From: Candidatus Thioglobus pontius
GTDB taxonomy: Bacteria > Pseudomonadota > Gammaproteobacteria > PS1 > Pseudothioglobaceae
Direction: 5' to 3'
DNA: 56,507 bases
NCBI GenBank assembly: GCA_014384345.1
Contig: JACNGB010000038.1
Coordinates: 1 to 56,507, forward strand
Part shown: in pieces, positions 47,425 to 50,229 of the stretch
How positions within the stretch are numbered: the stretch's first letter is position 1
Layout of the letters: each line of letters opens with the position of its first letter
Program-made: the position numbers and the translations under genes
Notes under the pieces: model-generated
Told to the model about the DNA's origin: nothing
Databases searched by the model: none
The model's input: the letters and a program-made list of their open reading frames with translations, nothing else

Positions 47425-47452
47425 AAAAAAAAAACCGCTTGAGTGGCGGTTA
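47425..47452 (-). terminator. Rho-independent terminator
   Basis: Reading on the reverse strand, stem AACCGC/GCGGTT (47446-47451 with 47433-47438) is followed by about ten T residues. It ends the transcript that carries the Sel1 gene and the two small frames, just upstream of the aapJ leader. Confidence 0.88.
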
Positions 47453-47465
47453 ATTGAAAAAAAGT

Positions 47466-47645
47466 TTAAGTGTGTTTCTGATGAAGTGCAACAAGCCCTA
47501 AAAGTATTGTCACCGTCATAATAATACTTAAGCCTTTAGAATCGACAATAGGTGAATAACTACTATAAGCCGAGGCTAGGGTTGTGCTGGCCAATAAAGA
47601 CACTGATAAAGCCAATATTGGCTTAATAAAAACAGATAATTTCAT
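47466..47645 (-). CDS. Small membrane or secreted protein, 59 residues
   Basis: Not recognised. It begins M-K-L-S-V-F-I-K-P-I with a signal-peptide-like run ending T-T-L-A-S-A near residue 26, then a short polar segment (Y-S-S-Y-S-P-I-V-D-S-K-G) and a second hydrophobic segment (L-S-I-I-M-T-V-T-I-L-L-G-L-V-A-L) ending H-Q-K-H-T. It starts four bases after the stop of the 25-residue frame and ends 14 bases before a terminator, so it looks like the last gene of a short operon. The ribosome site is weak, consistent with coupling. Confidence 0.6.
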   Translation of the reverse strand: MKLSVFIKPILALSVSLLASTTLASAYSSYSPIVDSKGLSIIMTVTILLGLVALHQKHT

Positions 47646-47649
47646 CCGC

Positions 47650-47727
47650 TTAGTGAATTAATGTCACGCTTAGTGACATAATAACTGCTGCAGATGAATA
47701 GATGATTGTATGTAATGCTAGATTCAT
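47650..47727 (-). CDS. Very small membrane peptide, 25 residues
   Basis: Not recognised. The peptide reads M-N-L-A-L-H-T-I-I-Y-S-S-A-A-V-I-M-S-L-S-V-T-L-I-H, one continuous hydrophobic helix. A strong ribosome site (GGGAG) lies seven bases before the ATG, the best reason to believe it is made. It follows the Sel1 gene by 35 bases and precedes the 59-residue frame by four. Confidence 0.55.
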   Translation of the reverse strand: MNLALHTIIYSSAAVIMSLSVTLIH

Positions 47728-47762
47728 TTTTTTCTCCCTGAAAAAATAGTAATAAAAGTTAA

Positions 47763-48116
47763 TTAGTGAACAGTTGTGCCAATTAACTGGTTAATAATTG
47801 ATTGAGTTGAACTTGAGTTTTTTAGTGTTGCTCTGGCGTACCATTTGTCAGCCAATTGTTTATTAGCCGATGTTCCTTCGCCAGTTAAATAAGCATACCA
47901 AACATTAAATTGTGCTGGCAAGTTACCCTGTTGAGCCGCTCTTTGGTACCAGTAAAAAGCATGCGCTGAGTTCTTAGCAACGCCCTTACCTTTTTGGAAA
48001 ATATCAGCCAACTTATATTGCGAATCAGCGTCGCCTAAATAGGCTTGTTGTTGGATCTTAACAGTGTCAATTTTTAGCTCAGATTCTGCCAATAAATGTG
48101 CATGCATTTGATTCAT
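47763..48116 (-). CDS. Sel1-repeat protein
   Basis: Cytoplasmic helical-repeat protein of 117 residues with two Sel1-like (TPR-like) repeats, about 25-60 (Y-L-G-D-A-D-S-Q-Y-K-L-A-D...) and 61-97 (N-L-P-A-Q-F-N-V-W-Y-A-Y-L-T-G). No signal peptide. Such repeats mediate protein-protein contacts; the partner is unknown. A GAGG ribosome site is eight bases upstream, and a promoter at 48151-48179 drives it. It is divergent from nadE. Confidence 0.8.
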   Translation of the reverse strand: MNQMHAHLLAESELKIDTVKIQQQAYLGDADSQYKLADIFQKGKGVAKNSAHAFYWYQRAAQQGNLPAQFNVWYAYLTGEGTSANKQLADKWYARATLKNSSSTQSIINQLIGTTVH

Positions 48117-48150
48117 GATATCTTCCTCTTTTTGTTGTTAAGTTGATCGA

Positions 48151-48179
48151 AATATACCGTGCTTTATGAGCCTTGTAAA
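48151..48179 (-). promoter_or_regulatory. Promoter of the Sel1/small-peptide operon
   Basis: Reverse strand TTTACA (48174-48179), 17-base spacer, TATATT (48151-48156). Good match to a sigma-70-type promoter, giving a leader of about 30 bases before the Sel1 ATG. Confidence 0.65.
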
Positions 48180-48254
48180 GGGTTTTTTTATTAAAAATTA
48201 AATATATTTTTATTTATTAAAAATCAATAAGTTATATGGTTTTTATGGTGGTTT

Positions 48255-48304
48255 TACCACTAGTGGTATTTTTTAACTAATTTAACTTCATTACACTAGT
48301 GGTA
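48255..48304 (+). promoter_or_regulatory. Paired palindromes upstream of nadE
   Basis: A perfect 14-base palindrome TACCACTAGTGGTA (48255-48268) and a near copy with core ACACTAGTGG (48293-48302, one mismatch to CCACTAGTGG) have centres 36 bases apart. The second lies over the -35/spacer region of a TATAAT box at 48314-48319 that would serve nadE. This looks like an operator; the helix-turn-helix at the N-terminus of NadE is the obvious candidate to bind it, which is inference. Confidence 0.65.
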
Positions 48305-48354
48305 AAAATTAACTATAATAGGTAAAAAATTCAAGTATAAAATCACAAAATACC

Positions 48355-50229
48355 ATGGCCAATAAAACCAAAGATTATCTTGCTAAAGTCCGCAAAAAGA
48401 CTGGCTTTTCAGACTACAAAATTTCCCAAGAATATGGCATTAACCAATCTAATTTAAGTAAATATAAATCTGGAAAATCCACCCTTTCAGAAACACACGC
48501 TTGGTTGTTTGCTGATATTTTGAACATCAACCCTGCCGAAGTCGTGGCTTATACCAAACTTGAGGCGGCAAAAATCAAGGGTGATAAATCGAAGGCCATA
48601 TTTTGGCAGGAACAGTTAGAAAACCTTTCTCAGAGCTCAGAGTCTATCAAAATCGATATCGCGCAAATTAACCCTGTTGTTGGCGATTTGGATAACAACG
48701 CCCAACAAATTATTGATTTAAGTATTGAAGCGGCTAAAAATGGATCTGACCTATTGGTATTTCCAGAATTGGCTTTAGTTGGCTATCTTCCAGAAGATCT
48801 ATTATTGCGCCATGGCTTTATGCAACAAGTGGAGCAAAAGGTTACATTTATTAAAAGCAAAATTCCTGACAATATTTCGATTATTTTCGGTGCACCCTGC
48901 AAGCAAAACAACACTTTATACAACTCTGCTTACCTTATTCAGAATGGTGAAATTAAAATTTACCATAAACAACAACTACCCAACTACAGTGTCTTTGATG
49001 AAAAACGCTACTTTACACCAGGCAATCAAACTTGTGTTTTTACCATTAACAACCAACGCATTGGACTATTGATCTGTGAAGACATCTGGGATGCTGATAC
49101 CGTTAAGGAAACGGCCAAATACGGCGTACAAACCTTGATTGCTATTAACGCCTCACCTTTTCATGTTGACAAACATCAACAACGCTTAGCAGAGGCAAAA
49201 AAACGCGTCATGGAAAATAATATTGACCTGGTGTATGTCAATCTAGTGGGTGGCCAAGATGAGATTGTTTTTGATGGTGGGTCATTCATAATGAACAATA
49301 AAGCGCAAATCACCCAACAACTCCCCTTCTTTAAATCCACCAGCACTCTACTTGAGCCGGCTCATAGCACCACAGCAACTATCAGCGTTGAACAAACCAT
49401 CTATGATGCTTTAGTGCTTGCCACCCAAGATTACATTAATAAAAATGGTGTATTTGATGGGGTGGTTATTGGTTTATCGGGTGGTATTGATTCTGCACTT
49501 ACCCTGGCCATTGCTGCTGATGCCGTGGGCAGTGAGAAAGTTAAAGCTATTATGATGCCTTACACTTACACCTCAAACATGAGTCTTGAAGACGCCAAAG
49601 CGCAAGCCAGCATCATGAATATTGATTATGATGAAATCAGCATTCACACGATGGTGGATAGCTTTAACGCTCAACTTAATGGTATTTTTAGCGGCATGGA
49701 AGCCGACACCACTGAAGAAAATCTACAAGCGCGCGTACGTGGCACACTGCTGATGGCCATTTCTAACAAACTAGGCAGTATCGTACTAACCACAGGCAAC
49801 AAATCTGAAATGGCTGTGGGTTATGCAACGCTTTACGGCGATATGTCTGGTGGTTTCGCCCCATTAAAAGATATTTCTAAAACCATGGTCTATCGATTGG
49901 CTAACTATCGCAATAGCCAATCCTATATTATTCCAGGGCGTGTCATTGATCGCGAACCTTCGGCGGAGCTTGCACCCGATCAGGTCGATCAAGATTCATT
50001 ACCACCGTATGACGAGCTAGACGACATCCTAGAGCTATTCATTGAGCAAAGGCTTTCTATTGCTGAGATTGTTCAACGTGGCCACAATCAACAAACAGTT
50101 GATCGCATTAGCAAGTTGGTGCTTAACAACGAATACAAGCGCAGACAAAGCGCGCCTGGACCTAAAATAAGTAAAAACGCTTTTGGTAAAGAGCGTCGTT
50201 ACCCAATGACTTCAAAGTTCAAGCCTTGA
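48355..50229 (+). CDS. nadE: Glutamine-dependent NAD+ synthetase with N-terminal helix-turn-helix domain
   Basis: Last step of NAD+ synthesis. Residues about 97-360 form a nitrilase-type glutaminase with catalytic triad E138, K205 and C241. Residues about 360-615 form the ATP-pyrophosphatase synthetase with SGGIDS (375-380). Before these sit about 90 extra residues with a Cro/C1-like helix-turn-helix (about 16-57, Y-K-I-S-Q-E-Y-G-I-N-Q-S-N-L-S-K-Y) and a helical linker. The family is normally about 540 residues; this is 624. The first Met after residue 1 is at 156, beyond E138, so the enzyme cannot start separately from the extra domain. Autoregulation is inferred. Confidence 0.9.
   Translation: MANKTKDYLAKVRKKTGFSDYKISQEYGINQSNLSKYKSGKSTLSETHAWLFADILNINPAEVVAYTKLEAAKIKGDKSKAIFWQEQLENLSQSSESIKIDIAQINPVVGDLDNNAQQIIDLSIEAAKNGSDLLVFPELALVGYLPEDLLLRHGFMQQVEQKVTFIKSKIPDNISIIFGAPCKQNNTLYNSAYLIQNGEIKIYHKQQLPNYSVFDEKRYFTPGNQTCVFTINNQRIGLLICEDIWDADTVKETAKYGVQTLIAINASPFHVDKHQQRLAEAKKRVMENNIDLVYVNLVGGQDEIVFDGGSFIMNNKAQITQQLPFFKSTSTLLEPAHSTTATISVEQTIYDALVLATQDYINKNGVFDGVVIGLSGGIDSALTLAIAADAVGSEKVKAIMMPYTYTSNMSLEDAKAQASIMNIDYDEISIHTMVDSFNAQLNGIFSGMEADTTEENLQARVRGTLLMAISNKLGSIVLTTGNKSEMAVGYATLYGDMSGGFAPLKDISKTMVYRLANYRNSQSYIIPGRVIDREPSAELAPDQVDQDSLPPYDELDDILELFIEQRLSIAEIVQRGHNQQTVDRISKLVLNNEYKRRQSAPGPKISKNAFGKERRYPMTSKFKP

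Follow-up and report, generated by a model that had tools for sequence, protein, structure and literature searches.

The window, by which we mean the whole stretch of 56,507 nucleotides that was analysed, raises the question of whether two very small hydrophobic frames behind a gene for a Sel1-repeat protein are genuine genes and, if so, which cellular machinery their products serve. All components of this locus lie on the minus strand. Transcription would start from a promoter of the form TTTACA-N17-TATATT (48151-48179), which was identified by a promoter scan (10 of 12) and by a family alignment in which the −10 and mostly the −35 element are conserved in most members. It is followed by the sel1 gene (47763-48116; 117 aa, Pfam Sel1) and by a 25-codon hydrophobic frame, here termed A (47650-47727), which has a strong SD sequence (GGGAG), carries TTCAGGGAGAAAAAAATG and encodes the peptide MNLALHTIIYSSAAVIMSLSVTLIH. 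After a gap of exactly four bases (GCGG) the ATG of a 59-codon frame is reached, here termed B (47466-47645), which encodes a 59-aa protein, and an intrinsic terminator (stem 47433-47451; 6 pairs, 4 of them GC, with an 8-T tail) closes the operon. The promoter scan returned 10 promoters against 7.7 ± 3.5 in shuffled sequences and the terminator scan 5 terminators against 2.7 ± 2.0, and on their own these scans are weak evidence. Membership of A and B in this operon is predicted, and sel1, A and B would be co-transcribed; the compact sel1-A-B operon between promoter and terminator that the initial annotation had described was right in its coordinates as well as in its description.

Comparison across relatives addresses the reality of the two small frames. 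At the sel1 locus A retains the same length and an SD sequence in 11 of the 12 loci of the genus, while the start and stop of B are kept in all 12 genomes, and no frame breaks were observed in either; in genome G003 A has been cleanly lost and B directly follows sel1. The median pairwise dN/dS within the genus is 0.08 for A (sel1 locus) and 0.20 for B, and a value of 0.16 was obtained for the copies of A at the second locus described below. Judged by these substitution rates and by the maintenance of frames, A and B are real genes under purifying selection. The initial annotation had considered chance frames unlikely and had proposed a Ka/Ks check, which, together with the conserved frames and SD sequences, bears it out; it had also named frameshifts or stops in close relatives as evidence to the contrary, and of these none was found in A and almost none in B, the exception being one decayed B in another genus.

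Neither A nor B matches a Pfam or NCBIfam family above the curated cut-off, and relatives of B produced scattered weak matches only. Among approximately 365 other gammaproteobacterial genomes no homologue of A was detected, and for B a single borderline match (E 1e-3) containing two stops was obtained; a search of the open literature with the terms used found no papers on these small genes. A relationship between A and B was considered and rejected, as profile comparison gives nothing. Two further observations concern individual loci. In G016, where the sel1 locus is rearranged, B (G016:C81:6315-6476) has two in-frame stops and is a pseudogene. In G005 a third copy of A, MNLVLHTIIYSSAAVIMSLSISLIH, lies behind soxY/soxZ-like genes together with a decayed B remnant that follows it (G005:C1:12580 onwards; L070 1501-1660), showing that A and B have been duplicated jointly as a cassette.

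Regarding the encoded products, hydropathy peaks of 1.9-3.1 over 17 residues were calculated for A and B, and A is predicted to be a 25-aa single-span membrane peptide. Its conserved residues (L5, T7, I9, Y10, A13, I16 and S18) all fall within its first two thirds, and most of the C-terminal columns (21-25) are among its most variable, so that A does not display the strongest C-terminal conservation that characterises nascent-chain arrest sequences. B is modelled by AlphaFold with helices at residues 3-30 and 36-58 (mean pLDDT 73), i.e. a signal-like N-terminal helix, a short loop and a C-terminal membrane helix that ends in QK, and this moderately confident model yielded no significant fold match in the PDB. 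The first helix has an invariant A24 at its end, which is compatible with a signal-peptidase site, though no proof of cleavage, and the basic terminal QK would fit an in-facing end. From hydropathy (A and B) and helix prediction (B), both products are predicted to reside in the inner membrane, in agreement with the original assignment of both frames as membrane peptides.

The Sel1 protein, which is presumably cytoplasmic as no signal peptide is evident, matches Pfam Sel1 (PF08238) at E 4.9e-15 with 55.8 bits against a gathering cut-off of 30.7 and bears two Sel1 repeats. Orthologs are present in 12 of 12 genomes of the genus (Thioglobaceae, Ca. Thioglobus-like) as well as in other genera, the named records being Ca. 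Thioglobus MAGs, the Bathymodiolus heckerae symbiont, Ca. Thioglobus perditus, Ca. Ruthia and Ca. Ruthturnera, and the median pairwise dN/dS within the genus is 0.06. Two more genera (G020, G018) carry both A and B behind Sel1, and another (G026, G032) carries B without A, in which case B has its own SD sequence. Divergently oriented is a gene encoding a fusion of an HTH domain, a carbon-nitrogen hydrolase and an NAD synthase (48355-50229, plus strand; 624 aa; Pfam HTH_3, CN_hydrolase and NAD_synthase), referred to here as HTH-NadE. This divergence is seen in all named loci examined except one that is cut by a contig end, and it persists in symbionts that have no A and B at this locus, such as Ruthia and Ruthturnera, from which A and B are gone. 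In contrast to other Sel1-repeat proteins, the fixed partnership with A/B and HTH-NadE is, as far as searched, particular to these bacteria.

The initial annotation had taken the divergence of sel1 and HTH-NadE to suggest a shared signal. Two operator-like blocks, both conserved family-wide, were found on the plus strand of the spacer: the palindrome TTACCACTAGTGGTA followed by TTTTTTAACTA (48254-48279), and CACTAGTGGTA-N4-TTAACTATAAT (48294-48319), which overlaps the −10 of the nadE promoter. This conserved two-block element thus sits in the nadE promoter, which weakens the notion of a shared signal and suggests that the fusion protein regulates its own gene. The nearer block lies 75 bp upstream of the −35 of sel1, and besides these blocks only one other YACTAGTGGTA site exists in the genome. 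In view of the position of the blocks and the scarcity of the site, HTH-NadE is no more than a possible regulator of sel1, and joint control of sel1 and nadE is likewise possible. Among 369 genomes of the class the fusion was found in family members only, apart from a weak match in one other genome (a 126-aa frame), and it may represent an autoregulating NAD synthase. A second, partial copy of its HTH domain, with a stop codon, was noted in G022 (G022:C117:31507-31773).

The best clue to function, and one that the initial annotation had missed, is the occurrence of both small families at the head of the dcw operon. When the family was searched for A, most genomes of the genus proved to contain a paralogue; in the window genome it precedes mraZ (G000:C14:27775-27849), and the operon, whose genes were recognised by sequence and order, reads A-mraZ-rsmH-ftsL-ftsI. 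Across five genera, 21 genomes have A at mraZ, where it overlaps that gene or lies no more than about 26 nt away, and 14 genomes belonging to two genera have B immediately ahead of mraZ; the two never occur together at this position, and neither is present in 13 genomes of a third genus, in one of a further genus and in G003. The latter genome is 83% complete and contains both sites, which are empty, A being absent from both loci.

The assignment of the mraZ-locus frames to these families is not circular, as models built exclusively from the sel1 locus find their counterparts at the other locus: B is recovered at E 1e-7 to 7e-4 and most copies of A at E 1e-14 to 1e-4 (with a weaker score for the divergent A of G102), while the best E value among thousands of shuffled sequences was 0.2-0.8. 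In the reverse test, with models of the mraZ locus, a minority of the sel1-locus B proteins scored poorly and that of G001 gave no match; identity between the B proteins of the two loci is only about 30%. A plain search with B pointed independently to the same place, with three of its five weak matches falling exactly before mraZ. B and mraZ share their fate where symbiont genomes have been reduced, as both carry stops in G029 and both are truncated or missing in G086, G082, G083 and G033.

The dcw operons also differ from the window locus in their upstream regions. Three AAGTGG repeats with 10-bp spacing (0-2 mismatches of 18) precede A or B in all A/B operons but one, the exception being degraded (G087), and the third box runs into TATAAAAT. 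The repeats match the published MraZ site of Mollicutes, which consists of direct repeats of AAAGTG[T/G] (PMC8475190), while in the spacer between nadE and sel1 no comparable repeats were found, the best candidate having 6-9 mismatches of 18. Both families recur before mraZ, with their position and the repeats conserved, and since such repeats precede A or B here and do not occur in the sel1 spacer, an MraZ-controlled operon probably starts with A or B at this site; the window locus is probably under a different control. Direct box-like repeats followed by mraZ, rsmH, ftsL and ftsI would define an MraZ-regulated dcw head; the repeats are apparent from sequence at the mraZ-locus copies of A and B, and the gene order was read in the window genome. 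The dcw heads of E. coli and Mycoplasma, where MraZ represses mraZ-rsmH-ftsL-ftsI (PMC8475190), have the same gene order and box-like direct repeats; in the present family, in contrast, a microprotein gene, A or B, is inserted between the repeats and mraZ.

Additional elements were observed in the leaders of these operons. The genera that carry A share a conserved ACTTGAGGAG that lies some 50-70 bases ahead of A in the 5′ leader of the dcw operon (L085-L102); in some species a 6-codon frame or an in-frame extension of A comes after it, and in G003 it is missing along with A. In genus g3, which has neither A nor B (L146, L148 and others), TGG repeats and TATAAAAT occupy the last 45 bases before mraZ, and the mraZ mRNA of this genus may be leaderless as these elements are so near the ATG.

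Our preferred reading, which is tentative and which we rate as somewhat short of evenly probable, is that A and B assist the division or envelope machinery as small accessory proteins of the inner membrane, and that the window contains a second locus for them, linked to Sel1. They would act at this machinery as small accessory or regulatory membrane subunits, whose basal dose would be set together with that of the division genes through the dcw operon under MraZ control, while the second copy of A, which together with B follows the gene of a presumably cytoplasmic Sel1 protein in an operon with a separate promoter, would adjust their level under another condition. The protein partners, the division role and the condition served by the second locus are presumed from this context, and we place a role in division, taken by itself, at a similarly cautious level, slightly below an even chance. 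Arguing against such a role, the first position in an operon need not imply a function in division, as it also couples translation to mraZ, and at the window locus neither MraZ boxes nor a neighbouring division gene is present. Two genera with B have no A and a whole genus has neither, indicating that neither protein is essential to division in the family.

Small subunits or modulators of membrane complexes are numerous among bacterial proteins of 25-60 aa, and it is conceivable, albeit unlikely, that A and B serve another complex (respiratory, transporter or export), their place ahead of mraZ then reflecting no more than the chance history of the operon. In most sel1 loci B is followed by amino-acid ABC transporter genes, which is consistent with this explanation, as are the extra A and decayed B behind the soxYZ-like genes of G005. 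The transporter, however, lies behind the terminator and is unlinked to A and B at the mraZ locus, and the independent recurrence of two unrelated families before mraZ is difficult to ascribe to accident.

A different role would be that of mere translational leaders, in which a short frame loads ribosomes and couples the next gene (mraZ or B), with the peptide being unimportant or an arrest sequence. The strong SD sequence on A everywhere, the usual lack of one on the mraZ or B that follows, the short gaps or TAATG overlaps after A in many genomes and the SD sequence that B possesses in G026 and G032, where A is missing from the sel1 operon, all accord with this proposal, and at mraZ translational coupling very likely does play a part. 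As a full explanation it is nevertheless improbable. The amino-acid sequence of A is conserved (dN/dS 0.08-0.16), and this conservation is N-terminal and mid-peptide and weak at the C-terminal end, opposite to the pattern required of an arrest peptide. Moreover, a leader peptide private to each locus is unlikely for A since the same conserved family precedes two unrelated genes, and the loss of both copies in G003 is as expected if they serve one function, while B, a two-helix protein, is not a leader. A leader-type sORF has been described before mraZ in Rhodobacter sphaeroides and resembles the present arrangement as a short frame in that position, although it overlaps an sRNA terminator, is weakly translated and occurs only in R. 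sphaeroides (PMC5089854), whereas A and B are conserved over genera.

The remaining explanations fare worse. The possibility that A is a hydrophobic peptide akin to a type I toxin, restrained by Sel1 or B, is very remote: type I toxins resemble A in size and hydrophobicity, but A is vertically inherited within one family, is first in an essential operon and is kept in two chromosomal operons with strong SD sequences under ordinary purifying selection. Short frames are common in AT-rich DNA and number in the dozens here, but the possibility that A and B are chance open frames is practically negligible given their conserved sequence, SD and position across species and their paralogues at a second conserved locus, and is refuted by dN/dS.

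The nearest functional parallels to the favoured assignment of A and B to the division or envelope machinery are two small division inhibitors of the Caulobacter inner membrane, SidA (29 aa) and DidA, which are induced by DNA damage and act on FtsW and FtsN (PMC4211646). By analogy, A and B would likewise be tiny inner-membrane peptides, two unrelated small proteins serving one machine, although their genes, unlike those of SidA and DidA, form part of the dcw operon, downstream of MraZ-box-like repeats. A more specific and rather improbable extension casts A and B as regulators of septal wall synthesis, either interchangeable or acting as partners, that were joined to the MraZ-controlled dcw operon in Thioglobaceae; the second, separately controlled A-B set beside the HTH-NAD-synthase fusion could then allow division to be tuned to the metabolic (NAD or nitrogen) state of these streamlined bacteria.

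The dcw cluster is among the most conserved of bacterial operons, and a dcw head held by a membrane protein of 25 or 59 aa, with one replacing the other, represents an unexpected variant of it. Absent from the annotation libraries searched, A and B provide a lead to the control of division by small proteins in abundant sulfur-oxidising bacteria and their symbiotic relatives.
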